From IMG/VR virus record IMGVR_UViG_3300007074_000017, positions 1 to 50,846 of that record: DNA of 50,846 bases, one strand, 5' to 3'. This stretch comes from a virus. Made by a program: the position numbers and the translations under genes. Of the stretch, positions 352 to 32,107 are shown one piece after another; position 1 is the first letter of the stretch, and each line of letters opens with the position of its first letter. The notes below the pieces were generated by a model. It saw nothing but the letters and a program-made list of their open reading frames with translations, ran no database searches and was not told the origin of the DNA.

Positions 352-582
352 ATGCCTGACCCTATTCAGCTACCCGAAGTTACCATTACCGCAAGCAGAG
401 TTGACCCTAAAAAGTACAAAACTGCTAAGGCGAGGCTTTACCCAAAAGGAACTATCGAGCAATCTTCCATCGACAGTTTGAAAAAAGCAGGGCACGCTAA
501 AACGATTGGCGAGCCTATGAAGGGTAATCTATACGGACCAGACCAGAGCGATCGGATTAAACAACTAATGCGTAAGAAATGA
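352..582 (+). CDS. Small structural-region protein, unknown function
   Basis: A 76-aa basic protein that starts MPDPIQLPEVTIT and ends in a lysine/arginine-rich tail. No domain is recognised. The 'PEVT' opening is reminiscent of small proteins near connector genes of Bacteroidota phages, but this is only an impression. It overlaps the next gene by the four bases ATGA, so the two are translationally coupled. First gene after the terminator and probably the first gene of the virion operon. Confidence 0.6.
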   Translation: MPDPIQLPEVTITASRVDPKKYKTAKARLYPKGTIEQSSIDSLKKAGHAKTIGEPMKGNLYGPDQSDRIKQLMRKK

Positions 583-1205
583 TTAGTGTCGTAACCCTGT
601 GGAATACGCTGATGCAGTCCGCAAAGTCAGGAACCAGTGGCTACCAGTCTGCCGGTGAGTTCAACCGTGACTTAGCTTCAGTGCAAACAAGCGCTATGGG
701 GTTACTTGCTCCGCAGTACGCTACGAACACTTACGTACAAGAGTTACTAAGCCCATTCGTTAAAAGCGTTGCTGTGTCACTGACTAAGCCTACCGAGTGT
801 TTCTACTTTTTAGGGGCAACTATTAATGATATCGCAGCATACCAAATAAACCCTTTACAAGCACCGATTTACAACTCAAGCCCTATTCGCAAACCAAGTG
901 CGACTAATCCGACAGCTTATTTCTATTTGATAGGTGGCGACATTACCTATATCCACGACGGTGCCTTAGCAGGAACGATGCAGTACATCAGAACGCCTAC
1001 AACAGCTACGATTGTCTTGACACCTACCTCTGACCCAAATCGGGATTACGTAACGCCTACCGCTGGGGCTGACCTAGAGTGGCCTGAAAGTGCGTTCAAT
1101 CTTATCCTTGCACTGATGCAACAGAAATTAGGCGTAGAGATGAAAGAATCATTACTAATGGAAGTAGCTCAACTAGGGCTACAATTTGAAATATCTAAAG
1201 CTTAA
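579..1205 (+). CDS. Connector/ring-type virion protein A, first copy
   Basis: A 208-aa protein related to the protein at 2256-2912. Both start MIS, have 'LLSPFV/LLDPFV' at about residues 56-61, 'KPTxFYxxLG' at about 70-80, and end with a shared block DLEW-ESA-NL-L followed by a helix. In crAss-like and P22-like phages, proteins of about 200 aa at this position form rings between portal and tail hub. The assignment rests on gene order and on the adaptor and hub genes downstream. No catalytic motif is seen. Start is fixed by ATGA overlap with the upstream gene. Confidence 0.6.
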   Translation: MISVVTLWNTLMQSAKSGTSGYQSAGEFNRDLASVQTSAMGLLAPQYATNTYVQELLSPFVKSVAVSLTKPTECFYFLGATINDIAAYQINPLQAPIYNSSPIRKPSATNPTAYFYLIGGDITYIHDGALAGTMQYIRTPTTATIVLTPTSDPNRDYVTPTAGADLEWPESAFNLILALMQQKLGVEMKESLLMEVAQLGLQFEISKA

Positions 1206-1210
1206 ATATT

Positions 1211-1651
1211 ATGGCAAAGAAAGCAGAGACTCCAAAAGCAGAGACTCCAAAAGCAGAGACTCCAAAAGCAGAGACTGCAAAAGCAAAGACTGCAAAAGCA
1301 AAGACTGCAAAAGCAAAGACTGCAAAAGCAGAGACTGCAAAAGAATTAAAGCTAGAAGTTCCTTCTTGGCTAGAAGGAGAAATGGAAGAAATAGCTAAAG
1401 CACAAGAAGAAAGATTCGTATCTGGGATGCTGGCGGGCTCACCTTCTGCTATCACTGAGCATTACGATGGGGTGGAGGTGACAACATTTGAACTTGACGA
1501 GATAGGGCAGATGCCTGAATCAAAGCCTCCAAAAGCAGAGACTCCGAAAGCAGAGACTAAACAATGGGTAACAGATGCCCTAAAACTTAAAAAGTTAGAG
1601 GGTTGCAAAGACACTTTAAACGGCACACTTTATTACGGAGAACTTAAATGA
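1211..1651 (+). CDS. Lys/Ala-rich repeat protein (KAETP/KAKTA pentapeptides)
   Basis: A 146-aa protein. Residues about 4-45 are pentapeptide repeats (KAETP changing to KAKTA), and two further KAETP units occur near residue 110. The rest is acidic (EGEMEEIAKAQEE), followed by a small C-terminal block LKKLEGCKDTLNGTLYYGELK-like. The N-terminal part resembles disordered histone-H1-like lysine/alanine tails and could bind DNA or act as a flexible linker in the virion. It sits between connector genes A and B and overlaps B by ATGA. No homologue is recognised. Confidence 0.7.
   Translation: MAKKAETPKAETPKAETPKAETAKAKTAKAKTAKAKTAKAETAKELKLEVPSWLEGEMEEIAKAQEERFVSGMLAGSPSAITEHYDGVEVTTFELDEIGQMPESKPPKAETPKAETKQWVTDALKLKKLEGCKDTLNGTLYYGELK
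1221..1346 (+). repeat. 15-bp tandem repeat array inside the Lys/Ala-rich gene
   Basis: About eight copies of a 15-bp unit (AAGCAGAGACTCCAA changing to AAGCAAAGACTGCAA) in frame, each coding five residues. A second short cluster of the same unit lies at about 1527-1560. Such arrays change length by slippage, so copy number is likely to vary between isolates. Confidence 0.85.
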
Positions 1652-2259
1652 AAGTCGAGAAACTTGTAGAAAGTGTTTTCTTGATGGTGAACGGTGGTAA
1701 GCCGAGCACTGACGATAATGTTATGCGTGCTGATATCACAGCCCTCGTGCCCGATGCGGTAAACGAGGTCATGGCGTTATTCTATGCGGCAGACGTGCCT
1801 TCTAGCGAAGGAACTGAGCCTAATCCGGTATTCCTACAAGTTTTTGAAGCAGTTGCAATCGCTTTGAGCGCAACCCGTAAAAAGTTCACTTTTACCTTAC
1901 CTAAAACGCCTTTGAGTGTAAACGTGTTCAAATCGGTCAGGTCGGTAGGGCTTATGGATGGCACACTGTTCACGCACTTCTATCCGCAGGATGGGACGTT
2001 AGGGTCGTATAATATCCAAATCGACAGAGCGATACCTGCATATTCCGTAGAAGGAACGTCCGTAGTGCTGTATAACGTACCAACAGGGACGGCAGAAGTA
2101 TTAGTTAAGCAATTAGTACACATCGACGATTATGCTTTGACTGATGAGATAATCGTGCCTTCTGGAACTGAAAATGCTTTGATTAGTAAATTATTTGCTA
2201 TGTTTATGCAGCAGAAGAGCATACAACCCGATAACCTAATTAACGGAGCGACGACATGA
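1648..2259 (+). CDS. Connector/ring-type virion protein B, first copy
   Basis: A 203-aa protein resembling the one at 2909-3526. Both open with a short helix (KVEKLVESVFLMVNGGKPS here, TKNELIGSVLLRVGGGRAT there), then 'READ/RADIxALV-P--N', and end with a domain closing in '-A-AL--KLFAMFMQQ' or '-AIDVLFQMVMGQ'. This is the second member of the duplicated A-B pair. Likely a portal-to-tail adaptor or ring subunit, by position. It overlaps both neighbours by ATGA. Confidence 0.6.
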   Translation: MKVEKLVESVFLMVNGGKPSTDDNVMRADITALVPDAVNEVMALFYAADVPSSEGTEPNPVFLQVFEAVAIALSATRKKFTFTLPKTPLSVNVFKSVRSVGLMDGTLFTHFYPQDGTLGSYNIQIDRAIPAYSVEGTSVVLYNVPTGTAEVLVKQLVHIDDYALTDEIIVPSGTENALISKLFAMFMQQKSIQPDNLINGATT

Positions 2260-2912
2260 TTTCTATACTAAACCTATTCGATTCGGTATGTCACGCTTTG
2301 CCTAATTACAAATCGGGGGTGAATCCTATGCCTGAGTTCAACTCCAAAGTGAATGAGGCGCAGAAAGAACTCATGGATGCTATTGCGGTTAAATACGATC
2401 AAAACGAACGTATCCGCACCTTACTAGACCCTTTTGTACTGAACGCTACAGGAACAGCCGTAGGTTCGATCGTAAAACCCACAGGTTTCTACCGTGCGCT
2501 CGGCATCACACTCACGCATGCTACTAAAACCATACCTGTTTACCAAGCTAAAGAAAACGAATTAATCGCACAGGATTACCTTCCACAGCGCAAGGCTAAC
2601 TTGGATAACGGAATTGCTTATTACAAGCAAGCAGGAACGACTATTACAGTCATCCCTTCTACCAGTGCGCCTTACTCTATGTTTTATCTACGCTCGCCTT
2701 TAGACGCCGCTCTGAGTTCCGTTTACACGGCACTTCCGAGTGGCGAATTGGCGCTTACCGCATCAGGTGTAATCGACTTAGAGTGGGATGAAAGCGCATA
2801 TAACTTATTACTGAATAGGGTTCTGCGCAAATACGGAGTAACGGGAAAAGACGAGTTAGTCCTACAAGCAAGTTCGGCAGATATAAACAGTGACTTAATC
2901 GCAGAGCCATGA
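2256..2912 (+). CDS. Connector/ring-type virion protein A', second copy
   Basis: A 218-aa paralogue of the protein at 579-1205: same MIS start, 'LLDPFV', 'KPTGFYRALGI' and C-terminal DLEWDESAYNLLL block. It is clearly diverged, so the duplication is old rather than an assembly error. ATGA overlaps on both sides place it in the same translationally coupled operon. Function as a ring or adaptor subunit is inferred from order. Confidence 0.6.
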   Translation: MISILNLFDSVCHALPNYKSGVNPMPEFNSKVNEAQKELMDAIAVKYDQNERIRTLLDPFVLNATGTAVGSIVKPTGFYRALGITLTHATKTIPVYQAKENELIAQDYLPQRKANLDNGIAYYKQAGTTITVIPSTSAPYSMFYLRSPLDAALSSVYTALPSGELALTASGVIDLEWDESAYNLLLNRVLRKYGVTGKDELVLQASSADINSDLIAEP

Positions 2913-3526
2913 CCAAGAACGAATTAATCGGTAGTGTATTACTGCGAGTAGGTGGCGGGAGAGCAACCTCAGATATGTCAGTCAGGGAAGCGGACGTTCG
3001 CACACTAATCGCTCCTGCTATGAACTTGGCTATTGAAGCAGGTGATAACATGAATCGCAACGAAGAAGCAGACAGAGATTATCTGACTGAGTTCTACGGT
3101 ACGTATCAAAACGTAACCATAGACCGAACTAACCGCATCCCTACGTTTGCGATAGCTGAGGCTACTGTTCCCCTTAAAGGTAATGGGGGGCTTAGAGCGG
3201 TGTATGATAATTGTGGTACGTTCTACGGCAAGCTGACCGCAGCGGACAGAGCGTCTGTTGTGTATTACAGTGGGCTAACACCGGGCATGGCTTGGTATTT
3301 TCGTTTAGGTGATACCGTGCAACTTTACGGAGTGAACCCTATTGCCGAAACAGTTAATTACGATGCGCTTGTAAGCGTGGATGCAATCGGAGACGACGAC
3401 CAATTACCCTTAGTAGCAGGAACGGAAGCCAAAGCAATCGACGTGCTGTTCCAAATGGTTATGGGGCAAATAGCCAATCCTTACGATAGCAGGATTGATA
3501 AAGACGATATAAACCGAAACGAATAA
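2909..3526 (+). CDS. Connector/ring-type virion protein B', second copy
   Basis: A 205-aa paralogue of the protein at 1648-2259, with the matching N-terminal helix and GGG turn and the matching C-terminal helix ending '-AIDVLFQMVMGQIANPYD'. It overlaps the next start by one base (TAATG). Together with 2256-2912 it repeats the A-B order of 579-2259. Confidence 0.6.
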   Translation: MTKNELIGSVLLRVGGGRATSDMSVREADVRTLIAPAMNLAIEAGDNMNRNEEADRDYLTEFYGTYQNVTIDRTNRIPTFAIAEATVPLKGNGGLRAVYDNCGTFYGKLTAADRASVVYYSGLTPGMAWYFRLGDTVQLYGVNPIAETVNYDALVSVDAIGDDDQLPLVAGTEAKAIDVLFQMVMGQIANPYDSRIDKDDINRNE

Positions 3527-4278
3527 TGAGCAGATCAGTTATAAGCCTTGACATCATAGCGAGCGACATTTGCGGAGACTTGAACGATCCGATGCTCAAG
3601 TATAAGTTCAGAGTGACTCGTCACTTGCTGAATGGGTACAGGCGCATGAATATGTTCCTGTCAGGGCAAACGCAAGTAAAGACTGCCATATTGGATTTCT
3701 CCAATGTGATAAACCTGCCGTGTGATTTTCAGTACGTGACTAAGGTTGGTGTCAGGCGAGCTGGAAGTAGCTGCATCGCTATTCTGTCTGTCAGAGATAA
3801 CGTAGAGCGCAGGGTGCTTAACGACACGGATACGTGCAACTATTTGAACAATATTTGGAGCGGAGCAGAACTTGGTCCACAATACGCTTTCTACAATGCT
3901 TGGACTGCGCAAGGCAATTACTACGGAGAATTGTACGGTATGGGCAGAGGGGTTATAAACTCAGGAACGTATAGCATTGATAAAGGAGAAGGTATTATCT
4001 ACATCGGAAGCAACGTACCGCCCGATTCGGAGGTTATTGTAGAGTATGTGGGTAATGGAATCTCTAATGGGGTGACTATGGTTCCTATGGAACTTAAAGA
4101 GTGCTTGGAGTTTTACGCTAAGTGGAAGTTTTATGCGGACAACAACCCACGCTTGGGTGAGATGAACTACGATAAGTATAAAAAAGAATATAACGTGCTT
4201 AAAAGATATTATAACCACCGCACGCCTTTGCAAATAGCTGTTGCGGTGAACAGTGCCATCAGCCCCACTAATTATTAG
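3526..4278 (+). CDS. P22 gp4-like head-tail adaptor / tail accessory protein
   Basis: A 250-aa protein. The opening 'ASDICGDLNDPMLKYKF' with a following helix, a central beta-rich part with GEGIIYIGSNVPPDSEVIVEY, and a C-terminal helix 'ECLEFYAKWKFYADNNPRLGE' match the general pattern of the crAss-like and P22 gp4-like adaptor that caps the portal. In that family the C-terminal helical region contacts the portal. The product is 250 aa, longer than P22 gp4 (about 166 aa) but in the range I recall for crAss-like versions. It precedes the hub gene, as expected. Ends with TAG. Confidence 0.6.
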   Translation: MSRSVISLDIIASDICGDLNDPMLKYKFRVTRHLLNGYRRMNMFLSGQTQVKTAILDFSNVINLPCDFQYVTKVGVRRAGSSCIAILSVRDNVERRVLNDTDTCNYLNNIWSGAELGPQYAFYNAWTAQGNYYGELYGMGRGVINSGTYSIDKGEGIIYIGSNVPPDSEVIVEYVGNGISNGVTMVPMELKECLEFYAKWKFYADNNPRLGEMNYDKYKKEYNVLKRYYNHRTPLQIAVAVNSAISPTNY

Positions 4279-4548: not shown

Positions 4549-7500
4549 ATGCCCTCTAAACTGAAACAAGTCGTAACCCACACTTTTACCGAAGGAATGA
4601 ATCGGGATACAGCGCTGTGGGTTATTCCCAACGGTGCGTACTATGAAGGCATCAATGTTAGAATTTTCCAATACGGAAGTCAGTACATCGTCACCAACCC
4701 AAAAGGGAATTTAGAAATTCCTTTTACACTTCCTGCTGGTACTAATTACTGCTTAGGTTCATACGGGGACACTGAAAATAATAAATTCTATTGGTTCAAT
4801 CATAATAGTACTGGCTATCACGGTATCTACTATTATGACTACTTACTGAATAGTGTAACTCCGGTTATCATCAACTTGACCGATACGGGCGGGGTTGACA
4901 TTTTGCAATTCGCTAAAAGGTCGTTAATCTTAATGATTGACGTGATTAAATCTGCATCGGGCGATGACTTAATCTATTGGTGCGATGGGCAGGTCAAGCA
5001 GAAGAAAATCAACGTACAGAAAGCCTTAGACAAAAGTTCTGCGGGCTATGGGGCGATCATAACGCCAACGGATATTAACGCTTACAAGCTCGCCGCAAGT
5101 GCGCCTGCTATGGCTTACTTTACAGATACTACGAGGTCAACTAACTTCGTGTATGGGCATCTCTACAAAGCATCGCTCCGTCAATGGTTCGATGATGGCG
5201 AGATGAACAACTGGTCGGAGTTCTCTATCGTACCGCTTCCTCTGGATAGCGGTTTTGCGGGTAATCCTGCAATCAGTAACGTGAACAATACCATACAGAT
5301 AACTATCGAGACGGGCCCAAGTATAGTAACTCACTTAGAAATTGCGCTTAAAGACGGAAACAAAGATTTTGTATCGGTAGTTGTTCTTGACAAGGCTAAA
5401 CTCAGCATCTCCGATAACAGCACTTACGTTTACAATTTCTACAACGGCAGTACTGCCTATTCAGGCTTAGACCAACTGAACGTGTACCGAGCGTACTCAT
5501 TCATGCCACGCTTAGCGGCTTTGCAGGCTTTCTGCCAGAACGCAATGGTTTACGGTAAAGGCGTAGAGGGGTTTCCCGATGTAGATGTTGTGCTGAGCAA
5601 CGAAACGGTATATTCAGATTTGTTCTTAGCATCCGATGTGGAGAATGAGCTGAACTCTCCATCCTTCGTAGCTACTATCCTAGACACAGACTTCACAAGG
5701 CAAGGCTCGGGCAGGCGCACGAATGCTTTAATAAGAGTAGTGGTGGGTAACGATGTGAAACTAGGTAATCAGTTCCAACTATTCGGTAATAATGGGCAGT
5801 CGGACAACCAGTACTTCACTTACACGGCCACTTTATCTGATACGGCAATTACCGTAGCGGATAACTTCAAGCAACAACTGATAGGCACGGGGAGAATACT
5901 CAGTACAAGTCCTGAGCTACCTGATACGGACATTTGGGATAATAGCATAGACGGTTCGGGAAATGTGACCTTTGAGTTCATTTGGAGGGGTTCGTTTGAT
6001 GAGAACGCTACCACTTTCACAGGGCAAGTGAACCCCGTATCGTTCCAAACCTTGAAAGATAACGGGCAATCCGTCCTAACACAGAAGTCAGGCGATTCGA
6101 TTAATTACGCGGTAATTTATTGGAACGAGGACACTTACCGCTCAAACGCTTACACTTCTAATGGTGGGTTTGTGCGTCACGATTTCGTAACAGAAACCGC
6201 AGGGTTTAAGAAGATAGTCGATAACATCTCCCTCAGCAACGTGCCGCCTGAGTGGGCTACGCATTGGGAATTGGTTAGGACTGCAGGACTTACTTATGGG
6301 TCGCTACCTACGGACTACGTGCAGATTCTCATACAGAAAGCCGTAGAAAGTCAAAGTACGACCGATACGGATTACGTGGATCTGGTGATAGGCTCTCTAT
6401 ACACCTATCAGAAAATGTACCCAAATACGGTAGTTCGTTACGCTTTCGAGAAGAACGACAGAGTTAGACTTATAAAGAAAGAGGATGACGGAACGTACTA
6501 CCCTTTCACCGAAACTATCGTAATTGATTTTAAGGAAGTCGGAACTACACTTACGGTGGACCAGGACGTAACCACAGCAGGAACTTCTACGATAACTATC
6601 GGTGGAGTGACCTCAGCGGACAACATTGGCCGGTTCATCGTGATTGATGGCGTAGAGCGTGAGATAATCGCGGTGCCATCAGGAACTACTTACACCCTAA
6701 ACAGTTCTTTCGGAACGACCGAGACGTACACTAGCTTCCAAATCGTTGACAAAAGAGGAATCATAAGAGTGCGTAAACCTATCGGCGTTGATATTGAAGA
6801 TAATTCTTTAGTGGAGGTGTACAAGCCTGTGCAGAACATCGAGTCGGCGCAGAATAACTTCTACCTATTCGGTCAGAAGTACGCCATCATTAACGCAGGG
6901 ACAGCTACAAGAACCCATAGCGGTAACGTGCAGAACCAAGTCGGTTCTACACCAGCTATCGTATCCGTCTCGCAAGGCACATCATACGTCAGGAACAGAC
7001 AACTGCCGACTAACAACACTATACCTGGTACACAAGCTATAATTGACTTAGTGGAGGATAACAGCTATTCTGACTTCTACGAAAGTGCTTTGAACAACAA
7101 CGGCAAGGTAACACCAGAAGATGATGGCAGTGGAGAGGTGCGCTTCGGCTCACGCCTGCGTTACAGTAACAACTACATCGAGGGCACACGCATCAATGGG
7201 TTGAATGACTTCAATAATCTTGACAGAGAGGACTACAGCGACCCGTGGGGGGATTTCATGCTCTTAAAGTACCGAGATAGACTGCTCTACGCTTTCAAGC
7301 AATTAAAGGTGGGCTACATCGGTGTGCTGAACAGTATAATCACCACGAGCGACGGCAATCCTTCGCTTGCGACCACCACTAAGTTCTTGAATCAGTACCA
7401 GACTTTTGCTTGGGAGGGTGGCATTGGTAATATGCCTGAGAGTTACGCATCTGACCAGACTTGGCAGTATTTTCTATCCCCCAATTCGGGAACAGATTGT

Positions 7501-8424
7501 AGAATAGGTGGCGATGGTGTCTTACCAACCTCACACCAATTCGGTTTGTCTAAAACGGTTAGAGAATACATAGACCTGTCACAGAAATACGGGGCTTTTG
7601 TATTTGGTGAAGTCGACAGACAGAACGTAGAACGCCTATTGGCTTTTGAACCAGTCATTCCTTACATTTACAGAGGTAGCTTCAATCAGGCGAATTGGAA
7701 GCTATTTGATGATGACCTACCACTTGATACAATCTTCGAGATCACTACTCAGCCGGTAAATGGCTCTGATAGCGTTCCTGTGGACGGAGTGACTACCTAT
7801 ACGCCTGACACAGATTTCGTGGGCTCTGACCCGTCCTACTTCAGATGGAGTATCGGCGCAGGGTGGAGCGCACCTAAGAAGATTTGTATGCTTGTGGATG
7901 ACGTGCCTATCCCACCTCCGACAGTAACTTATTACAATGTGGTCGCCTCAGAATGGTTTACTAAGGAAGGTTGCGAAGCAGGTTATCACGGCTCGGGTGT
8001 AGAATACACCGTGGCGGCATTAACTTACTCCTCGCCTTTCAGCCAAGAAGCCGCCGACCAACAGGCGATTGCTGATATAGCAGCTAACGGTCAGGCTTAT
8101 GCCAATGCGAATGGAGAGTGTATTCCAGATGCGCCCCCAGGAGTAACAGAGTATCGTTTGGTCAGCTATTCAAGCCTAGATAGGCCAGAGGCTTGCGGAG
8201 GTTCTATTCTATTAACAGGAAGTCCTATATCGGTATATGCCACATCGGGAGCAGTAACGGATAACAAAACATTATACAACCAACCTGAGTTAATCAGTGT
8301 GTGGCCAGACGTACCGAACGATGGGGATTATGTGATGTTCTTCGTAGCAGGTGCGCCTACTGTAACTTATGTAGGAAATGTCGATATAAGTGGTAATATG
8401 ATTTCAATAGTAATTTGTACTTAA
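4549..8424 (+). CDS. Large tail hub / stabilization protein with C-terminal Ig-like and DUF5977-like domains
   Basis: A 1291-aa protein. The N-terminus (FTEGMNRDTALWVIPNG, then YEGINVRI) is the signature of the P22 gp10-like / crAss-like 'stabilization' hub that closes the portal channel. The long middle is beta-rich. Near residues 1060-1110 is a cadherin/VCBS-like strand pattern (ITTQPVNGSD...TYTPDTDFVGSD). Near 1125-1190 is a region with the 'FTKEGCEAGYHGS...QAIADIAANGQAYANANGEC' layout typical of the DUF5977 module of Bacteroidota surface proteins. The tail ends in another beta domain (1195-1291). Fusion of surface-type domains to a hub suggests host-derived receptor-contact modules. Two bases separate it from 8426. 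Confidence 0.65.
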   Translation: MPSKLKQVVTHTFTEGMNRDTALWVIPNGAYYEGINVRIFQYGSQYIVTNPKGNLEIPFTLPAGTNYCLGSYGDTENNKFYWFNHNSTGYHGIYYYDYLLNSVTPVIINLTDTGGVDILQFAKRSLILMIDVIKSASGDDLIYWCDGQVKQKKINVQKALDKSSAGYGAIITPTDINAYKLAASAPAMAYFTDTTRSTNFVYGHLYKASLRQWFDDGEMNNWSEFSIVPLPLDSGFAGNPAISNVNNTIQITIETGPSIVTHLEIALKDGNKDFVSVVVLDKAKLSISDNSTYVYNFYNGSTAYSGLDQLNVYRAYSFMPRLAALQAFCQNAMVYGKGVEGFPDVDVVLSNETVYSDLFLASDVENELNSPSFVATILDTDFTRQGSGRRTNALIRVVVGNDVKLGNQFQLFGNNGQSDNQYFTYTATLSDTAITVADNFKQQLIGTGRILSTSPELPDTDIWDNSIDGSGNVTFEFIWRGSFDENATTFTGQVNPVSFQTLKDNGQSVLTQKSGDSINYAVIYWNEDTYRSNAYTSNGGFVRHDFVTETAGFKKIVDNISLSNVPPEWATHWELVRTAGLTYGSLPTDYVQILIQKAVESQSTTDTDYVDLVIGSLYTYQKMYPNTVVRYAFEKNDRVRLIKKEDDGTYYPFTETIVIDFKEVGTTLTVDQDVTTAGTSTITIGGVTSADNIGRFIVIDGVEREIIAVPSGTTYTLNSSFGTTETYTSFQIVDKRGIIRVRKPIGVDIEDNSLVEVYKPVQNIESAQNNFYLFGQKYAIINAGTATRTHSGNVQNQVGSTPAIVSVSQGTSYVRNRQLPTNNTIPGTQAIIDLVEDNSYSDFYESALNNNGKVTPEDDGSGEVRFGSRLRYSNNYIEGTRINGLNDFNNLDREDYSDPWGDFMLLKYRDRLLYAFKQLKVGYIGVLNSIITTSDGNPSLATTTKFLNQYQTFAWEGGIGNMPESYASDQTWQYFLSPNSGTDCRIGGDGVLPTSHQFGLSKTVREYIDLSQKYGAFVFGEVDRQNVERLLAFEPVIPYIYRGSFNQANWKLFDDDLPLDTIFEITTQPVNGSDSVPVDGVTTYTPDTDFVGSDPSYFRWSIGAGWSAPKKICMLVDDVPIPPPTVTYYNVVASEWFTKEGCEAGYHGSGVEYTVAALTYSSPFSQEAADQQAIADIAANGQAYANANGECIPDAPPGVTEYRLVSYSSLDRPEACGGSILLTGSPISVYATSGAVTDNKTLYNQPELISVWPDVPNDGDYVMFFVAGAPTVTYVGNVDISGNMISIVICT

Positions 8425-8425
8425 T

Positions 8426-9337
8426 ATGAGCTTTGTAACCCTTAAAAACACCCCAATCCAAATTGACTTAGCGCAGTTAGCCGTCGATAATGGGTGGCGT
8501 ATATCTGGGGGGACTGCCTATCACGACCCTTGCTTTGCAGGCTACATAACGCTTGAGAACACAGCCGTTGTAGCGGATACTTCTTACGTAGTTACTTACG
8601 AAGTGGTAGATTACGTTTCGGGAAGTGTGCGTGTAATCATAGGCACAGAACTTGGTATTAACCGCACCGCAAATGGGGTTTACACTGAAACAATCTTAGT
8701 TCCGGGCGCACCTGCTAACCTGCTAGTGCAGTTCTACTCCGATGGCGAATTGGGTGTGAACTATGTCGAGGCTTATCCTGTGGAGGATACACCAGATACA
8801 GGCCATGTTTTAGGATTCAACATCGAGGAAAACAAATGGACGACCTACTACTCGGGGCAGCGTGAGAATATGCTGAAATTCCTGAATGACTTCTTTGCTT
8901 TCAAAGATGGTAGGTTGTGGAAGATGAACGTAAATCCTATTCGTAATAACTTCTTTGGAATGCAGTACACTTCGAGCATTACGCTTGTCGTGAACACTAA
9001 TCCGACGGAGATTAAGAACTTCTTTTCAATTAGGCAAAAGTCGAATAGCGTATGGGGGGTTCCGTCCATCATAATCCCTCCGAGTGAAGGAAAAGTAAAT
9101 GGTATGGAATCTTTAATAAAAAGTGGTAACTTTATCACGTTGAACAACGGCGATCGCTTCGCTGACTTTTTGCGGGATAAGACCGACCCTCGATTTGGGA
9201 CGGAGTTACAAGCACTTTTCGAGGGAGCGGTATTGCAAGGAAACTATGCAGTTATTACCTTTGAGAACACAAGTACTGAGGAGGTTAGGACTTTGAGTAT
9301 AGATTTTATGATTAGTAAACAAGAATTTACCTATTGA
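8426..9337 (+). CDS. Tail protein resembling the detached C-terminal part of the hub
   Basis: A 303-aa protein. Residues about 1-110 look like a jelly-roll or carbohydrate-binding domain. From about residue 128, 'HVLGFNIEENKWTTYYS' leads into 'FLNDFFAFKDGRLWKMN' and 'NNFFGMQYTSSITLVVNTNPTEIKNF', a run that in other crAss-like hub proteins sits inside the single long stabilization protein. I infer that the hub was split, with the surface-type domains of 4549-8424 inserted before this part. It starts 2 nt after the hub gene, consistent with co-translation and joint assembly. Function otherwise unknown. Confidence 0.55.
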   Translation: MSFVTLKNTPIQIDLAQLAVDNGWRISGGTAYHDPCFAGYITLENTAVVADTSYVVTYEVVDYVSGSVRVIIGTELGINRTANGVYTETILVPGAPANLLVQFYSDGELGVNYVEAYPVEDTPDTGHVLGFNIEENKWTTYYSGQRENMLKFLNDFFAFKDGRLWKMNVNPIRNNFFGMQYTSSITLVVNTNPTEIKNFFSIRQKSNSVWGVPSIIIPPSEGKVNGMESLIKSGNFITLNNGDRFADFLRDKTDPRFGTELQALFEGAVLQGNYAVITFENTSTEEVRTLSIDFMISKQEFTY

Positions 9338-12128: not shown

Positions 12129-15100
12129 ATGCCAGACTTAAAAGAGCTATTAACAGAAGCGCATAAAATGGGAGCAAGTCAAGCACAACTTGACACTATT
12201 GTAGAACGGTACAATCAAAAAAAAAGCGACGTTGGCAACGATTCACCCGATGCACCGAGTACCTTAAACTCATTTGGGGGTGGTTCAAATCCTTTCCAAA
12301 GTTCCCAAGTAGATACTGAAATACCAACGGTATTAAGTGAAAAGGCAAAGCTAGACAATATTCGTTCCAAGAATATTGCAGGTAAGTTCAAAGTAGATAC
12401 ACAACTACCCGAAAGCCAATTAGGTTATCCAATAGGTAAAATAGGTAAAACTACTATTGATGTACCCTTAGAGAATAAAGTATTCAGAGAATTTGCTGCA
12501 CCTACCATCCAAAGAGAATTTGGGGTTGCCGATATAGACGTAACACAGAACAAGGTAGGTGAAAGCCTTACACGAAAGGGCGGTTTCCAAGACGACATAC
12601 AGGCGACTGAATATGTGCCACAAGAACCAACACAAGAGGATGTAGGCTATTTAGAAAGCCTAAAAAACTCAATAACCAATGTTGGTGTTGGACTTCAACA
12701 GTTTATCCCTAATACACAAATTGCACTTGAAGGCACTCTTAAAACTTTATTAGGTAAAGATTTAGGTACTGACGCATATTGGCAACTAACAAAAGGCGAT
12801 CCTGAATTACACAGAGCAGAATCCTATCAAAAATTAGCCGAATTAGAACCACAATTTAAGCAAACAAGGGGGTTAGTCGAAAGTGGTCAAAACTTTGATG
12901 TGTTTGGTCTTGCAGTAGCAACAGTAGACGCGGGGCTTTCTTTGGTTAGAACAATGGTTACATCAGTACCAACGGCAGGGTTAGGTTTATATTCTGATAT
13001 GGTTGGTGGCAGTGTTGCTTCGTACAATCAAGAGAAAGCAAAGCAAATGGGCCTTAGTGTTAGGGAATTGTATGATAGAGGGGAGAATGACTTTGTTGTC
13101 CCTGCTACAATAGGTACAATTGCTGCACAAATGGAGAAAATAGGATTGAAAGGTGTTAGTAATGCAATTAATAAAAAACTTGTTGGTAGTTGGCTTAAAA
13201 AAACCGCTGTATTTGGTGTAGAGGTAAATAAAGAAGGCTTAACCGAATTGGTTCAGACAGGATTAGATGAAGCAAATAAGTCATTAGCACAGGGTAAAGG
13301 TGCAGTACAATCAAGCAAGGATGCTGCCTCAGCTATGTTATCTAAGAAAGGTCTTGAAAGCTATTTAATGGGGGTTGTAGGGTCAGCAGGTGCAGCAGGT
13401 GCAGCAGGAGTGGGTAGGATAGCCAAGTCTATGATAAGCCCTAAAGCTAAAGAAAAAGTTCAAGCGCAGACAGAAACTATTGAACGCTTAAAGACAGAGT
13501 TAGAAAACCCTAATTTATCCCCTACTGCACAAGAGTTTGTTGCAGCTCAAATCCAAACATCGGTTGCTGATGTAGCCACAGAAGTTGAAACAGATGCAAC
13601 ACTTTACGAAAATCTAAGTACCGAGCAGAAGAAAGAAGCAGACAGGCTGAATGGCGAAATTGAAAAATCAGAAACCGTTATTAACGATCCTGCGCTCTCG
13701 GAAGAAACCAAAGCCGCTGCGGTAGTTGAGAACGAACGACTGAATACCGAATTAGAAGCTAAACTAAATGAGAAGTCTGCTGAAGTAAAAACTCCAAAAG
13801 TAGATACCCCCGCCAAGACGGTAGACGTAGCTAAGGTAGCACCCATGTCTTATACCGAAGACTCGGCAGAACAAATAACAAATATAGTTAATAGCATACC
13901 AGATATTAAAACTACGGAGGGTTTACTTAATAGCACAAAAGGAACTCATTACGAGGCGTTAGCTAAAGCATTAGGCGGTTACCTACAAAATATAAAAACA
14001 TCTATTGTACCCAAACTTATAGATAAATTTGGTATTAGAGAACATGGCGGGCTGTTTGAAGACGGTGTAATAAAGCTAAAAAAAGGCGAAGGCATAACAA
14101 CTTTTTTACATGAAGCATTGCACGCTGTCACATCAGCTAAATTATTAGCCTGGACACGTTTTAATCAATTAAATAGATATAATTTAGAGGGTGGGAAACC
14201 ACAACAATCATTTAAAGAATTAGGATTGCATGATTTATCTAAAAAAGACATTGAGGCAATAAAAAACTTAGAAAGAATCTATGAAGAAAGTAAATTAAAA
14301 GCACATGAATTTTTAGGTGGTGGTAAAGCCGATAGAACTAAAGGGTTTTATGGTTTTACTAATATAGATGAATTTATTTCAGAGGCTTTTACTAGCAAAG
14401 AATTTCAAACTTTATTAAAAAATATAAAAGGAGAAGGTAAGACATCCAATTTATTTAAAGATTTTTTAGATAGTTTGGCTAAACTATTGGATATAAAAGA
14501 CCCTACTATTTTAGATGATATATTTTACCATACTGAAGTCTTGATGGATGGTAAAAAACAAACGCAAGTTAAAGACTCAGCAGAACAAATCACCAAAGAA
14601 GCTAAGCAAGCCGAAGCGGAGATGGCTAAGAACAATGACCCTGCTGAATTTGAGATTAAGATGGAGGCTTTGGATAAGCGGGCTCAGGCGTTGCCTAAAA
14701 CAGGGGAAGTTATTTCTGAAATTAAAAATACAATTGAAGATGAACAAGCAATTACTATTTCGCCTAATGCGAAAGAATTACAATCCAAGGCTAACAACAA
14801 TGAAGAATCGGTGGTACGTAACGAAGCTGGTACGACTAGCAATGCTACTGAAACCGTTACACGAGAAGTAAAACCAACTGCTGAGGTAGCAAAGCCAGAA
14901 CGCACAGGCGATGCTACCGAGAACGAGATTAAGATGGAGGCTTTGGATAAGCGGGCTCAGGCGTTGCCTAAAACAGAAGCCGAGGTAGGAGCATTAAAAG
15001 ATGTAGAGAGTACCGCTAAAGCATTGGATAGTGTTGAATTAGGTGATAAGTTTAAATCACAAGATACTGAAAGTGTATTAGATAGAAATAATTTTTATAG

Positions 15101-18100
15101 AAAAGCACAAGAAATGTTTGTAGAATCAAAAGGTTTAACAAATGACGAAGTGTTTAATAAAAATAAACAAAAAGGCGAGCTCACCACAGAAAAAGGCAGA
15201 ATAGCATTTCAGAAAGAATTTGAAAAGTGGACAGAAACAAATAAAAAACAAATTATTTCAGAAGCCTATCACTCCGACAAAGCATCGGGTAAAGAAACAG
15301 AACTAACCAAAGCAGTAGAATCCCTACTAAAAGAACAACCCACAGAACCCATACAATCTAAAGCAGAACAAACCACTCCTGCTGCTACTGCTGCTGCCCC
15401 TGCCACGACTGCAACAACTGACCCTTTATTAAAAGCAGAAGATGACCTAAAATCTTTAAGTAAGTCAAGCGATAAGCAAACCAAATATGCAGCAAGCGTT
15501 AAGCGGTTAATCGAGGCTAAGAAAGATAGGCAGATCACAGAGAAAGAGTTCAATGATATGTTTAAGCGTTTTGGTGACGTGCTTGCTGCGGATAAGAAAG
15601 CAGGAGATATATTACGCAAGTTAGCTGATAAAATAGACCAAGGCAGGATTAACAAGCTAGGCGGTATGCGTGGCGGTACAGGTTACGACCTAATGTGGGA
15701 TGGCTCACTTACCATTGCCTCCGCATCGTTGCGTGCAACCGCTGATATAGTGGATGTGTCTGTGCGCATAGCTATCGCAATAGAAGCAGGTCTTGCCCAC
15801 GCCAGAAAATCTGATTGGTACAAGAGTTTAAACAATAAGCCTAAGTTCGAGGCCGCCTATACCGCCCATCTTGAGAAAGAGTTTGGTAAGCAATTAGCGG
15901 ATGACGTGGTAACTCCTGAAAAAGAAACCCCAACGCAGGAAGCACCAACGCAAGAAGACCGCAAAGAGTTGAAACGTGCGGCAACCCAGCGCGCATTAGA
16001 TTCAGACCAATACGGGCAAGGCTTCAAAGATGCGCTATCTTACAAAGCAATTCATTATACCGAGTTACCTAACCAAGTAACTGAGCAGGAAGCTGAGGCG
16101 CTTATAGAGATACAAGGCGAAGTGGGTATAGAACGAGATTTGTATGATTTCAATAACGGAATGCCTAGTGCGGTCAGGTTCTCTGTGCTTCAGAAATTAA
16201 TCGACATCTACGAGGCCAAAGGGGATAATTTGAAGGCGGGCGAACTTGCCGAGGAGTTATACTCCAAGGCTACCGATTATGGGCAGGGTATTCAGATTTT
16301 CTCGACCTTTCCAAAACTTTCCAAAGCCACTAACGTCGCTATAGCCAGAAAGACTGTAAAGACCAACAGAGATGTCGTAGCTAAACGTGCTAAGCCCACT
16401 ACCGACAAGCTGACCAAAGAGTTCAAGAAAGCGAATAAAGAAGCCGCAGAGGAAACGGTAGAGGCTGTAAAGAAGTCCATAGGCAAAGCTACCCTTCAGA
16501 AAGGAGCTTCGCTGACAGACCTCCCTCTAGGGTACGGTATGAAAAATAAGGTGTTCACTCGGGCTAAGTATTTGAAGGCTAAACAAAATCTACGAGGGGC
16601 TACTTTCTCTTTTGCAGGGGGTATCCCTATTGAGGATTTAGTGAACATTGCAGGGTACCACATCGAAGCTACCGGAAAAGACTTTACTAAGTTCACAAGG
16701 CGGATGAAAGCTGACTTGGGGGCAAAGATTAAACCTTATTTAAAGGATATCTATGCGAAGTCCAGAGAATCGCTCATCGAAGGTGGGTACGATCCTGCGT
16801 TGTTCTTAACCGATGAGCAAGTGGCCGAGCAGATAAATGCCGAAGATGGGCAAGTGTATAAAGAGAAGTTAGACAAAGCTATCAAGCGCAAATCTGCCAA
16901 AGAGCAGAAGCAAGCCATCGCCAAACTGCAACAGATAAGCAAAGAGGAAGGACTATGGGGGCAGTACAGCAATAGTGCTGCCAGCAGGCTGAAGAGTATG
17001 GTTAAACCTAATATCCAAGCCGATATAGCAGGGCAACCCTCTTTGCAGCAATTCACAGACGGACTTGTCCGCAACATGAAGCAGAAGATGGCTGAGTCCA
17101 TGCCTGAGCAGACTAAGAAAAGGGCTGCTCCTCGCTCAGCTATCGACATCATAGGCGATGCGTACAGTAATTTTGAGAAGTACAAAGACGTATGGGTCAA
17201 AACCCAAAAAGAGTTTCAAGAGGAGTTCGCCGACCAACCTGAGATACTAGAGGCTATAGACGCTTATTTCGGAGAGATTCTGGAAACTCCTTTCTCAGAT
17301 CGAGTGTTAGAGTCTGCGGTGCGTAAAGGTTTGAAAGATATGGATAAGACCATAACCGACCTTGTTGTGCAACACTACACCCTCGTTGACCATGCTAGAG
17401 AGTCTTTATCCGATAAGCTAGTTAACGAAGCTGGGCTATCAGGCGCCGAGGCTAAGCAGCTCGCCTATGAAATAGAGCGTAAGTTTGACGAGATAGCTAC
17501 TAAAAAGAAGCAACAGATATTGGAGCGCATGTTTTCAGCCAAGACCAAAAGGACACCGCAAGGGAAAGCCTTGGAAGATGGTATTGTGAAAATGACCAAC
17601 TTGGGTGGGTTCTCCAACGCTGACATCGTGGAGATGTATGCTGAGAAAATGGGGTGGCCTAAACTCACCCAAGAAAACATAGCAGAAATTGAATTGTTAT
17701 CCGACATCATCCAAAATACTAAAGACCCTATTAACCGCAGACGTGCTACAGAAGATTTGCTCGCCTACCAAGCTAATCTAAAGGGTATATCCGCTTTAGA
17801 TATGGCCACCGCTATATGGTACGCTAACGTACTATCGGGGTATAACACTCAGATAATAAACATAGGAGCTAACGCTATAAACACGTCACTTCTATATGCT
17901 AATGCCGTTGCGCAGAATCCTACTAATGCCGCTTTCATCGGCAGAGGATTGATGCAGGGGTTGAAACGAGGATGGCTAGAGAGCAAAGATACTTTGCGAA
18001 CCGGATATAGCCCTATAAAGGGTAAACCTGAGATACCGTCTCTCCTTGAGCGTATGGATTTCAAAGGAGGGCAGTGGAACCCCGCGAACTACTTAAAGCA

Positions 18101-19973
18101 TGTTAGGCGTGTTATGGTAGCGGCAGACGTTTTGTTTTTTGAAGGGCAGAAAGAAATGAGGGCTTACCAAATGGCTATGAAACAGGCTATGCGGGAAGGG
18201 AAAGACGTACCAACCTTAGACCAACAGAACAGGGCTATCGAGTTAGTGGGTAGAAGTGCGGGTCAGCTTCAAGCTATCCAAGATAAATACCAAGCTGAAT
18301 ATGCTGAGGATTTAGAGCGTATAGAGGGGCAGGATGAATTAACTCCTGCGGAGAAGAAAGAGCTGTTAGGCATTTTAAAGGCGGATACACAGCGTAAGAT
18401 ATTCGATGCAGTAGAAAGGCAACGTAGCGCAGAGATGGTGGAAGACGCAGTGAAGTATGCCTCAGAAGGTACTTACAACTACCAACCTAAAGGCACACTA
18501 GGGGCAGTGGCCAATTTCATAAATCAGTTGGTACAAGACGTGCCAATTCTGAGATACGCAGTGCCTTTTACGAACATAATTGCCAATGTGGCTAATGAGA
18601 CTATAAATTACACCCCTTTGGCTTTTACAAGGTTGAACAGAGGTGGGTGGAGTAAATTTCGCAGAGACACGCTGTCTCAGCAGGACCGAGCCGATTTAAT
18701 GACCAAGGCGATTATAGGCACTACTTTGATGGTGACACTCATGGCTCTTTCCCAATCGGGCGAGGATGACGAACCTATAATCGAAATAACAGCTAACGGA
18801 ACGGGGGATTACGCTAAAAACGAAACTTTGAAGTTAGGAGGCTGGCACCCTTATTCTTTTAGGATCAAACTGCCTTCGGGTAATTACTCGCCTTGGTATT
18901 CCTACCAATACTCCCCGTTAATGGCATCGCTGGGGTTCGTAGGCCACTTTAACGACTTGCAGAAATATAAAGGTGGGGATAGCGAGTTGGGGGTTGTGGC
19001 TAGACTCAGTGCCGCTGCCGGACTGACTGCGACTTCTATTTTCCAAGCCACGTTTCTAACAGGTGTGGGTGATATGTTAGCGGCTTTGCTCGACCCTAGG
19101 AGCAGCGAAGGTCTAATTGATAAAATGGCGAGAGGGGCGGTCAATGCAGCTAGGGGTGTCGCTATACCTAATTTACTTACTCAAACATCTCAAGACTTGG
19201 AGCGCATATTTGACGTGCCTAAGAAAGAGACGCGACCCGTTAAAGATGGCACGGTAAGCGATTACGCCAAGAGTTTGATAGCTAGAACGGTACAAGACGC
19301 TCCCTATGCTCGGAATATGTACTATGATAAAATTAACATCTTAGGAGATCCTATTCTGTACGATACAGATAAATTTGAATCAGCGAATATACCTAATAGA
19401 ATAATCGAACTGTTAGTCGATAAGAAAGCAGTGTTTGCCCCTATGAGCCGGAACGAGCAGAAGATTTACGACGTAGATAAAGAAGTGGAACGTGCGCTCA
19501 ACGATCAAGAGTTCTACGAATACGCCAAGGTAAAAGGTGCTTTCATAAAGAACGCCCTTACGGAAGGATACAAAGATGGGGGTAAGACCTACCTGTACGA
19601 AGACTTCACTAAAATGAGTGAGGACAAGTTCAAGAGTGTACTATCTAAAATAAAAAGGAATGCAACGCTAGAAGCCAAAGCCAGTACAGGTGGTGTGCCG
19701 AGCGAAGTAATGACTATCCAAGAAGATATAGATAATGAATGGCAGTTATCGCCCAAACAAATAAAAGAGCGTATACGTTTAAACAAAGAATACGTAGAGA
19801 ATAATGAGTCTATTCTAATAACCGATACTGAAGCCTATATTAGAGAGGAGGGGCTTACACCTGCACAGGCTAGAGCCAAGGCACTCAAAGATTTATGGCG
19901 CGAGGCGAATAGCAAATCTAAGGACATTCTACTAGCAGACCCTACTTTTAAAGAAAACGCAACTATTAAATAA
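12129..19973 (+). CDS. Giant polyvalent ejection protein with zinc-peptidase module
   Basis: A 2614-aa protein. An early domain (about 150-440) has hydrophobic helices. A zincin motif HEALH lies at residues 661-665, with a possible third ligand near 748-752 (NIDEFISEAF). About 770-1150 is a disordered, repeat-containing linker. The long helical part includes 'MDFKGGQWNPANYLKHVRR' near 1980, resembling large polyvalent-protein domains of the LPD38 type. Near 2190-2360 are hydrophobic helices (TKAIIGTTLMVTLMAL). Such proteins travel inside the capsid and are ejected with the DNA; the peptidase may cut host or virion proteins. No DFDGD-type RNA polymerase motif was seen. Residues 1-1100 are more AT-rich than the rest, which suggests a mosaic. 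Confidence 0.65.
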   Translation: MPDLKELLTEAHKMGASQAQLDTIVERYNQKKSDVGNDSPDAPSTLNSFGGGSNPFQSSQVDTEIPTVLSEKAKLDNIRSKNIAGKFKVDTQLPESQLGYPIGKIGKTTIDVPLENKVFREFAAPTIQREFGVADIDVTQNKVGESLTRKGGFQDDIQATEYVPQEPTQEDVGYLESLKNSITNVGVGLQQFIPNTQIALEGTLKTLLGKDLGTDAYWQLTKGDPELHRAESYQKLAELEPQFKQTRGLVESGQNFDVFGLAVATVDAGLSLVRTMVTSVPTAGLGLYSDMVGGSVASYNQEKAKQMGLSVRELYDRGENDFVVPATIGTIAAQMEKIGLKGVSNAINKKLVGSWLKKTAVFGVEVNKEGLTELVQTGLDEANKSLAQGKGAVQSSKDAASAMLSKKGLESYLMGVVGSAGAAGAAGVGRIAKSMISPKAKEKVQAQTETIERLKTELENPNLSPTAQEFVAAQIQTSVADVATEVETDATLYENLSTEQKKEADRLNGEIEKSETVINDPALSEETKAAAVVENERLNTELEAKLNEKSAEVKTPKVDTPAKTVDVAKVAPMSYTEDSAEQITNIVNSIPDIKTTEGLLNSTKGTHYEALAKALGGYLQNIKTSIVPKLIDKFGIREHGGLFEDGVIKLKKGEGITTFLHEALHAVTSAKLLAWTRFNQLNRYNLEGGKPQQSFKELGLHDLSKKDIEAIKNLERIYEESKLKAHEFLGGGKADRTKGFYGFTNIDEFISEAFTSKEFQTLLKNIKGEGKTSNLFKDFLDSLAKLLDIKDPTILDDIFYHTEVLMDGKKQTQVKDSAEQITKEAKQAEAEMAKNNDPAEFEIKMEALDKRAQALPKTGEVISEIKNTIEDEQAITISPNAKELQSKANNNEESVVRNEAGTTSNATETVTREVKPTAEVAKPERTGDATENEIKMEALDKRAQALPKTEAEVGALKDVESTAKALDSVELGDKFKSQDTESVLDRNNFYRKAQEMFVESKGLTNDEVFNKNKQKGELTTEKGRIAFQKEFEKWTETNKKQIISEAYHSDKASGKETELTKAVESLLKEQPTEPIQSKAEQTTPAATAAAPATTATTDPLLKAEDDLKSLSKSSDKQTKYAASVKRLIEAKKDRQITEKEFNDMFKRFGDVLAADKKAGDILRKLADKIDQGRINKLGGMRGGTGYDLMWDGSLTIASASLRATADIVDVSVRIAIAIEAGLAHARKSDWYKSLNNKPKFEAAYTAHLEKEFGKQLADDVVTPEKETPTQEAPTQEDRKELKRAATQRALDSDQYGQGFKDALSYKAIHYTELPNQVTEQEAEALIEIQGEVGIERDLYDFNNGMPSAVRFSVLQKLIDIYEAKGDNLKAGELAEELYSKATDYGQGIQIFSTFPKLSKATNVAIARKTVKTNRDVVAKRAKPTTDKLTKEFKKANKEAAEETVEAVKKSIGKATLQKGASLTDLPLGYGMKNKVFTRAKYLKAKQNLRGATFSFAGGIPIEDLVNIAGYHIEATGKDFTKFTRRMKADLGAKIKPYLKDIYAKSRESLIEGGYDPALFLTDEQVAEQINAEDGQVYKEKLDKAIKRKSAKEQKQAIAKLQQISKEEGLWGQYSNSAASRLKSMVKPNIQADIAGQPSLQQFTDGLVRNMKQKMAESMPEQTKKRAAPRSAIDIIGDAYSNFEKYKDVWVKTQKEFQEEFADQPEILEAIDAYFGEILETPFSDRVLESAVRKGLKDMDKTITDLVVQHYTLVDHARESLSDKLVNEAGLSGAEAKQLAYEIERKFDEIATKKKQQILERMFSAKTKRTPQGKALEDGIVKMTNLGGFSNADIVEMYAEKMGWPKLTQENIAEIELLSDIIQNTKDPINRRRATEDLLAYQANLKGISALDMATAIWYANVLSGYNTQIINIGANAINTSLLYANAVAQNPTNAAFIGRGLMQGLKRGWLESKDTLRTGYSPIKGKPEIPSLLERMDFKGGQWNPANYLKHVRRVMVAADVLFFEGQKEMRAYQMAMKQAMREGKDVPTLDQQNRAIELVGRSAGQLQAIQDKYQAEYAEDLERIEGQDELTPAEKKELLGILKADTQRKIFDAVERQRSAEMVEDAVKYASEGTYNYQPKGTLGAVANFINQLVQDVPILRYAVPFTNIIANVANETINYTPLAFTRLNRGGWSKFRRDTLSQQDRADLMTKAIIGTTLMVTLMALSQSGEDDEPIIEITANGTGDYAKNETLKLGGWHPYSFRIKLPSGNYSPWYSYQYSPLMASLGFVGHFNDLQKYKGGDSELGVVARLSAAAGLTATSIFQATFLTGVGDMLAALLDPRSSEGLIDKMARGAVNAARGVAIPNLLTQTSQDLERIFDVPKKETRPVKDGTVSDYAKSLIARTVQDAPYARNMYYDKINILGDPILYDTDKFESANIPNRIIELLVDKKAVFAPMSRNEQKIYDVDKEVERALNDQEFYEYAKVKGAFIKNALTEGYKDGGKTYLYEDFTKMSEDKFKSVLSKIKRNATLEAKASTGGVPSEVMTIQEDIDNEWQLSPKQIKERIRLNKEYVENNESILITDTEAYIREEGLTPAQARAKALKDLWREANSKSKDILLADPTFKENATIK
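13860..14594 (+). repeat. Direct repeats flanking the zinc-peptidase module
   Basis: A 21-bp stretch coding DSAEQIT occurs at 13860-13880 and again at 14574-14594 with 18 of 21 bases identical and the same frame. The segment between them is conspicuously AT-rich and contains the HEALH peptidase. This is what an in-frame insertion or duplication of one module would leave. Confidence 0.7.
14652..14976 (+). repeat. Exact 52-bp direct repeat in the giant ejection protein gene
   Basis: The 52 bases at 14652-14703 recur identically at 14925-14976, coding EIKMEALDKRAQALPKT both times. The offset is 273 bp (91 codons), so recombination between the copies would delete or duplicate 91 codons without changing frame. 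Exact identity implies a recent event or gene conversion. Confidence 0.9.
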
Positions 19974-31465: not shown

Positions 31466-32107
31466 TTAGCTGTTTATCCAATCGTTCCAATCATTCTGAT
31501 CATTCCGATCATCCGTTAGTACTTCCTCGGCACACCTTAGTATGTGTAAACCCATTTCTGGCACTACGCAATTACGCAACACTTTTCGTTTATCTATGCC
31601 TGTGTAGCTGTCCAAGTCGAAGCCTAGTTTTTCAGATAGAAACTTCCTCTCTTCAGGTTTTTTGCAAGTTTCTAACTTCTCGAACTCCATAGGCTCTATG
31701 TGGAAATTACACCAAATGGCGTGCCGGTGTAGTATTGTACTCGGCTTTATCAAAGGGGCGTAGTAAGGTATTACATTCTCAATTACCCACAATCCTTTAT
31801 ACCACTTTTGCAATAGGATTATCTCGGCGTACAAAGTCATATCGGGGTAAACGATTACTTTATTCATTGTCCGTAACCTACTATGTGTAGGGCAAGGAGG
31901 AGATGCCCAAATAATATCAAACTCTTTAAAGTGGTCTAGTAGGTATTGGTGGGCGTCCCCTACAATTACAGTATCGTTTGGGAAGTGCTCTTTGTATATA
32001 GCTGCTATATTAGGGTCGTACTCTACGGCTGTAATTTCGTACCCGTCACCCCATAGTTTTCTGTTACCCCCTATTCCTGCGTATAGATTCAGTATTTTCT
32101 TTTTCAT
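31466..32107 (-). CDS. Cytosine-C5 DNA methyltransferase, short form
   Basis: A 213-aa protein. Motif I 'LNLYAGIGGNR' (7-15), motif IV 'ASPPCPTHSR' with the catalytic Cys at 72, and motif VI 'WVIENV' (about 106-111). It lacks a long target-recognition domain, so it is short for the family. The usual PPCQ/PPCQPFS is PPCPTHS here, as in other compact phage C5 enzymes. The C-terminus LTDDRNDQNDWNDWINS is a small repeat shared with the end of the overlapping frame at 32113-33444. Confidence 0.8.
   Translation of the reverse strand: MKKKILNLYAGIGGNRKLWGDGYEITAVEYDPNIAAIYKEHFPNDTVIVGDAHQYLLDHFKEFDIIWASPPCPTHSRLRTMNKVIVYPDMTLYAEIILLQKWYKGLWVIENVIPYYAPLIKPSTILHRHAIWCNFHIEPMEFEKLETCKKPEERKFLSEKLGFDLDSYTGIDKRKVLRNCVVPEMGLHILRCAEEVLTDDRNDQNDWNDWINS

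Follow-up and report, generated by a model that had tools for sequence, protein, structure and literature searches.

An old tandem doubling of a putative tail-ring gene pair in a virus-genome fragment

The window analysed here, i.e., the whole of IMG/VR record IMGVR_UViG_3300007074_000017 (50,846 bases), is apparently a fragment of a virus genome, and the region described below most likely carries the tail-barrel genes of a short-tailed phage resembling the crAss and Cellulophaga phages. Judged by sequence comparison, four genes of this region—A (579–1205), B (1648–2259), A′ (2256–2912) and B′ (2909–3526), all on the plus strand like their neighbours in the tail region—represent a real and old doubling of a pair of putative ring-protein genes. 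In the interpretation in which we place moderate confidence, the copies A′ and B would supply additional ring layers to a longer barrel, and the array, old as it is, would have undergone exchange of the block B-A′-B′ (1648–3526) as a module. One adaptor ring is usual in short phage tails, with crassviruses showing lengthening through stacked paralogous rings.

Results

All four reading frames begin with ATG and are intact, precisely where the initial annotation had placed a tandemly duplicated connector gene pair. B and A′ overlap by 4 bases, as do A′ and B′, and the products measure 208 and 218 amino acids (aa; A/A′) and 203 and 205 aa (B/B′). Among the ten proteins of the region, blastp aligned A with A′ (29.0% identity over 214 aa, E = 3.4e-24) and B with B′ (26.2% over 191 aa, E = 1.3e-10), with no significant cross-match between A and B. 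Global alignment against 200 shuffles gave Z scores of 32.6 for A–A′ and 17.7 for B–B′, the 13 other pairs tested all having |Z| < 1.3. The profile–profile alignment that the annotation had proposed as a check was likewise significant for both pairs: using deeper profiles, hhalign matched the A1 type (A) to the A2 type (A′) with a probability of 99.8 (E = 2e-27), and B1 (B) to B2 (B′) with 99.7 (E = 2e-25). The two units are thus paralogous, arranged head to tail and in the same gene order, as in a tandem gene duplication. Since A–A′ and B–B′ are homologous along their length, we take the doubling to be real and old. An assembly artefact was ruled out, as the same array is found in a second contig (L029) and the copies are only 26–31% identical.

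Relatives were collected mainly by scanning viral contigs with a four-row muzzle alignment, which confirmed 315 stretches, the best 80 of them being used; further duplicated arrays may exist beyond these 80. Together with earlier scans, this yielded 13 loci with both A and B, window included (L017–L020 being repeats of contigs already counted). A single A–B pair was present in 11 of the 13. Eight of these (L001, L002, L022, L024, L026, L027, L030 and L033) share the gene order of the window but for the second pair, with an A protein 32–76% identical to that of the window (8/8) and, in seven, a main muzzle gene product 38–75% identical; the other three are L023, L028 and L034. The arrangement A-B-A′-B′, followed by C in both cases, occurred in the window and L029 (2/13). 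Searching whole contigs recovered one A gene in eight of nine relatives and two in L029 only; in L001 and in L002, A′ and B each found a single match. In more distant loci carrying a ring gene of the type present in Cellulophaga phage phi38:1, this gene was single and B was absent (66/66 loci, many of them near-copies of each other); one further distant locus, L057, showed no ring gene. Searching 50,697 phage records by tblastn with A′, A, C and the L001 B returned no useful match. Scans of viral contigs with single proteins gave no relative for A′, B or B′ and retrieved L001 and L002 for A, the same two contigs as scans with A and C alignments, and a muzzle scan of genome contigs gave no relative. 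The assumption of the initial annotation that phage connectors have one copy of each ring therefore describes the single-pair relatives and the distant loci well, but does not extend to crassviruses, which, according to excerpts of the phicrAss001 structure paper (PMC10172136), stack several paralogous rings.

In phylogenetic trees, the A protein of the window grouped with those of L001 and L002 (support 100/100), and its C and muzzle proteins with those of L001 (98/99 and 100/100, respectively). B′, A′ and B, in contrast, grouped with their counterparts in L029 (100/99, 99/94 and 100/99). B′ falls into one subfamily with the single-copy B proteins of relatives, its closest member there being the L029 B′. 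Approximately unbiased (AU) tests, for which the groups were named after the first trees had been inspected, rejected a clade of B′ with the B proteins of L001 and L002 (p = 2.7e-4) and a clade of the window A with the L029 A (p = 2e-5). With B′ placed next to L029 but A, C and muzzle next to L001, the block has a history that differs from that of its flanks, namely A (579–1205), C (3526–4278) and the muzzle gene. The tests also rejected a clade of A with A′ (p = 9e-5) and one of B with B′ (p = 4e-11), ruling out a recent duplication in this phage's own lineage; together with the divergent history of the block, this speaks against a simple in-place duplication, as the initial annotation had implied. 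The two-pair arrangement is old, and its sequences suggest that B-A′-B′ was probably transferred as one module from lineage to lineage, an exchange that probably occurred either in the lineage of the window or in that of L001 and L002. A, the main muzzle gene and C of the window are 76%, 75% and 67% identical to their L001 counterparts, as against 43% for B′; between the window and L029, identity is 36–51% in B, A′ and B′. The B proteins of L001 and L002 (72% identity) are conserved to much the same degree as their A proteins (70%), so B does not generally evolve fast.

A separate observation concerns L023, L028 and L034, whose muzzle proteins are 36–38% identical to that of the window, yet whose major capsid proteins (MCPs) are only ~26% identical to that of L001 and whose C proteins are 24–31% identical to the window's. 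This mismatch is a further sign of tail module exchange, although a long-branch warning applies to the muzzle tree.

The copies also differ in how divergence is distributed along them. Compared with single-copy B proteins, B is 45–46% identical in the first 39 alignment columns and 14–19% in the remainder, while B′ is evenly similar (38–39% and 34–37%); the corresponding values for single-copy B proteins among themselves are 49% and 41%. The B of L034 was omitted from the alignments behind these values and behind the end-similarity of B′ considered below. In a block permutation, in which every shuffle was searched for its best break point just as the data were and the window was pooled with the related L029, 19 of 5000 shuffles counted. 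A resembles single-copy A proteins along its full length, with a similarity that equals or exceeds the mean among those proteins in 12 of 13 stretches (the close L001 and L002 being among the proteins compared), and A′ has diverged along its entire length.

To place the three protein types among known ring proteins, family profiles of 15 A, 15 B and 8 C sequences were compared with crassvirus families using hhalign. Ring-family labels for crassvirus genomes other than phicrAss001 were given from position and annotation, the THA family contained crAss001 gp38 twice, and the 'ad' family included some muzzle open reading frames (ORFs), which widened its alignment to 1726 columns, with C aligning to the first 253. 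The A family matched R3/R4/R5 (68.8, E = 4.5e-5), the C family R1 (44.4, E = 2e-4) and the B family R2 (12–14, E = 0.002); no other crassvirus ring or hub family was better matched by any of the three, and the crAss001 hub proteins THA and THB were not matched by them. In phi38:1-type phages, the single ring protein was matched by the profiles of A (97.2) and A2 (91.6), and the second protein by C (88.9, or 95.1 for the same family with larger profiles). No relevant hit came from sequence searches against the PDB (queries A′ and C) or from profile searches (A, B and C alignments).

The AlphaFold model of A (pLDDT, the predicted local distance difference test score, of 74) displays the ring-protein fold of three conserved helices plus a beta-sandwich, and its best match was crAss001 gp34 (7qoj_E; Foldseek E = 4e-6, Z = 12.3, root-mean-square deviation 4.4 Å over 187 residues). 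For the model of B′ (pLDDT 57.5), crAss001 gp35 was the sole PDB match below E = 0.001 (Foldseek E = 8.9e-4), the best Z score (7.9) was to the R2 protein gp40, tied with the P1 connector, and a viral library gave 21 matches at E ≤ 0.001, the best of which was to a protein from crAss-like phage cr6_1 (E = 4e-5). Tail adaptors of the T7 gp11/P22 gp4 type (SU10, GP4, KHP30, P1 connector) share the fold of A (Z ~4–10) and, weakly, that of B. By predicted fold and by profile, A is a ring protein with a good mapping to R3–R5, C a probable ring or adaptor protein with a moderate mapping to R1, and B a probable ring protein with a weak mapping to R2. The profile match of B to R2 is too weak on its own, but the gene order A-B-C-muzzle equals the order R4/5-R3-R2-R1-muzzle of crAss001. 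The order of ring genes from MCP to muzzle is visible in L001, L029 and others; in the window, the portal and capsid genes, which lie upstream of A in relatives, would fall before the start of the record.

According to the same excerpts (PMC10172136), the phicrAss001 barrel is built of rings R1 (gp43), R2 (gp40), R3 (gp35) and R4/R5 (gp34), the genes are arranged in the sequence in which the rings follow one another from the muzzle towards the portal (R4/5, R3, R2, R1), and paralogous ring proteins make up dodecameric layers of their own. There, gp34 and gp35 (30.6% identical) are called more recent paralogues, and the ring set is linked to the extended barrel. A review likewise describes ring-gene number as differing among Crassvirales, implying a different ring number and tail length. 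By analogy, we infer the number and order of rings, and a longer tail, as follows. Single-pair relatives would have three ring-type genes, A (R3/R4/R5), B (R2) and C (R1), preceding the muzzle gene, and the window would have five, A-B-A′-B′-C. If, as is most likely, each copy forms its own dodecameric ring, the barrel would be lengthened by one A–B unit, and with ring order following gene order, as in phicrAss001, the predicted stack is muzzle-A-B-A′-B′-C-portal. A, the predicted muzzle-proximal layer, would keep the contact to the muzzle and B′ that to the single-copy, predicted portal-proximal C, leaving B and A′ as inserted inner layers; such an interior position of B and A′, next to new neighbours, would fit the conservation of A throughout, of B only N-terminally and of B′ evenly, and the divergence of A′. 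The block B-A′-B′ would have passed from one lineage to another as a module, and would not stem from a recent duplication in the phage itself. More tentatively, B-A′ may constitute a tail-length cassette at the A|B junction that leaves the end interfaces (A–muzzle and B′–C/portal) untouched, with the 1.9-kb B-A′-B′ moving as a unit and replacing a single B.

Discussion

How the extra copies are deployed is open to several explanations. The paralogues, being similar in length and belonging to the same families, could co-assemble, A with A′ and B with B′, in the same dodecameric rings (e.g., 6+6 alternating), so that the number of layers would stay unchanged; a 12-to-6 symmetry change does occur at the crAss001 muzzle. 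However, in the excerpts on crAss001 each ring is the product of one gene and paralogues occupy separate layers (PMC10172136), and the copies in the window have strongly diverged (A′ is ~30% identical to A, B is 26% identical to B′, and B has diverged over most of its length). We consider such hetero-rings quite unlikely and favour, by analogy, an extra layer. The inner pair B-A′ might instead build another structure, e.g., a collar or a fibre-docking ring around the barrel, without adding layers to the tube. The low similarity of B to single-copy B beyond its N-terminal part (14–19%) would leave room for a new role, and no hub candidate was found, the A, B and C families being unmatched to THA/THB of crAss001; yet B and A′ still belong to the ring families of single-pair relatives (hhalign 99.7 for B1–B2 and 99.8 for A1–A2), and both have been kept in tandem order in two lineages, which makes this option unlikely. 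That the copies are redundant, without function and heading for loss is very improbable: although 11 of the 13 loci with A and B dispense with the extra pair, all four frames are open, with overlapping start and stop codons, and the array has been kept in two lineages that are only 36–51% identical in B, A′ and B′.

As to how the array arose, the four genes could be ancestral and B-A′ lost in most lineages, including that of L001 and L002, with the remaining B changing later and no module ever transferred. The positions of A′ and B would be compatible with such vertical descent, as both branch outside the A1 and B2 groups, joining the single genes of L023, L028 and L034 (98/95 and 100/98, the B tree having no outgroup), and a placement of A′ with the other A genes, apart from these three, was not rejected (AU p = 0.19). 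Vertical descent predicts, however, that B′ groups with the B of L001 and L002, and the AU test that rejected this clade still gave p = 0.013 once the N-terminal columns had been removed, with the grouping of B′ with L029 retained (98/98). We regard descent without transfer as a serious but rather unlikely account, and module exchange as the probable one.

Several observations weigh against an extended barrel with an exchanged block. The likeness of B′ to the L029 B′ peaks at both protein ends, its middle part being about equally similar to L001, and shared constraint from contacting A′ could contribute to it. The arrays of the window and L029 share the ancestry of the block and are therefore not two independent gains. 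Among the Pfam matches of the window proteins at E ≤ 1, CrAss_Ring_1 was not listed for C, nor CrAss_Ring_2 for B, and the latter was not listed at E ≤ 0.1 for the B-type proteins of L001, L026 and L029, whereas both positive controls, crAss001 gp43 and gp40, were. Of five runs for A, only one gave a good model; that of B′ is of poor quality, and the R2 assignment is weak. We know of no member of the group for which a structure or proteome is available.

Set beside known systems, the window resembles phicrAss001 in having several paralogous ring genes in the order R3–5, R2, R1, muzzle, with the MCP at the other end, and in the fold of gp34/gp35, which is matched by A. It differs in that, in the excerpts on phicrAss001, one ring gene (of the R3/R4 type) is doubled, whereas here the doubled element is an alternating two-gene unit of an R3–5-type and an R2-like gene, which moreover belongs to a block with its own history; in addition, B and C are not listed under the crassvirus ring families of Pfam, and the L001 portal matches no crAss phage. 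Cellulophaga phages phi38:1 and phi46:3 and the Flavobacterium elemo phages (PHROGs 14543, 13977) have a comparable layout of MCP-X-ring-second ring/adaptor-muzzle, and it is their ring and second proteins that match A and C, but they possess one A-type ring gene and no B. Multi-ring tails and a variable number of ring genes are thus already known in Crassvirales, and it is the doubling of a two-ring unit as a block that looks new; within the open-licence papers searched, no doubling of an R3–5/R2 pair was found in print.

If the proposed architecture is correct, phages can gain and swap a repeating unit of two rings as a whole. Being so close in A and the main muzzle gene, the window and L001 would then form a natural pair differing in ring number and would allow a direct test of how ring number determines tail length, as well as of the evolution of contacts between adjacent rings. 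The 11 single-pair relatives and L029 offer intermediate divergence for modelling of ring interfaces. Should B-A′ indeed act as a cassette, exchange of the 1.9-kb module would switch the number of rings and, with it, the length of the barrel and the volume of cargo.

Other features of the tail region and the window

Between A and B lies a gene, K (1211–1651, plus strand), encoding a low-complexity protein rich in Lys, Ala and Glu, in which a C-terminal stretch of ~30 aa is conserved. This stretch is 61–64% identical over 28–33 aa to the products of ORFs at the corresponding position in L001 and L002. Because these single-pair relatives already carry K between A and B, it was not brought by the duplication, contrary to the insertion envisaged in the initial annotation. 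ORFs at this position also occur in L027, L029 and L030, and a different one in L022; no ORF of at least 60 aa was found there in L024, L026 and L033. The K gene contains a 15-bp tandem repeat (x8.3, 1220–1343). Upstream of A, a small ORF (352–582, plus strand) is matched at the equivalent position by homologues in L001 (51% identity over 74 aa) and L002 (40% over 68 aa). GC content of A, B, A′ and B′ (0.45–0.47) is similar to that of most neighbouring genes, so that base composition gives no sign of a recent import.

Downstream of C, and separated from it by a small ORF, the main part of a muzzle/nozzle-like protein is encoded at 4549–8424 (plus strand, 1291 codons; phrog_14478, E = 8e-46). 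It matches 84 phage records, all from Flavobacterium and Cellulophaga phages except for one uncultured phage. Its C-terminal domain forms a separate gene at 8426–9337 (plus strand, 303 codons), whose product matches Pfam crAss_MUZ_C (PF25729; E = 5.1e-7, 30.5 bits, above the cut-off of 27) as well as PHROGs 38031 and 18548; these two PHROGs are also matched by phi38:1, which is not a crassvirus by its record. In phi38:1, a single protein of 1324 aa spans both parts; in all 11 relatives in which the C-terminal part was found, it is a separate downstream ORF. Of the features that mark the order Crassvirales, the muzzle C-terminal domain is present, but the portal, as represented by that of L001, is not closest to crassviruses: it matched three phage records without a crassvirus label, of which two belong to Tenacibaculum phage Gundel_1 and the third to an uncultured phage. 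Two other IMG/VR records, L005 and L006, are fragments 100% identical to the window muzzle; as they begin within the muzzle gene, they are uninformative on rings.

Among the relatives, L029 has an ORF of 285 aa with a hydrophobic, signal-like start between B′ and C (L029:8396–9253), and the C gene of L030 is present as two adjacent ORFs of 168 and 79 aa (L030:9203–9949). Elsewhere in the window, an ORF of 2614 aa (12129–19973) has no PHROG match at E ≤ 0.01, and two separate ORFs, at 31466–32107 and 35790–36611, match DNA methyltransferase families.

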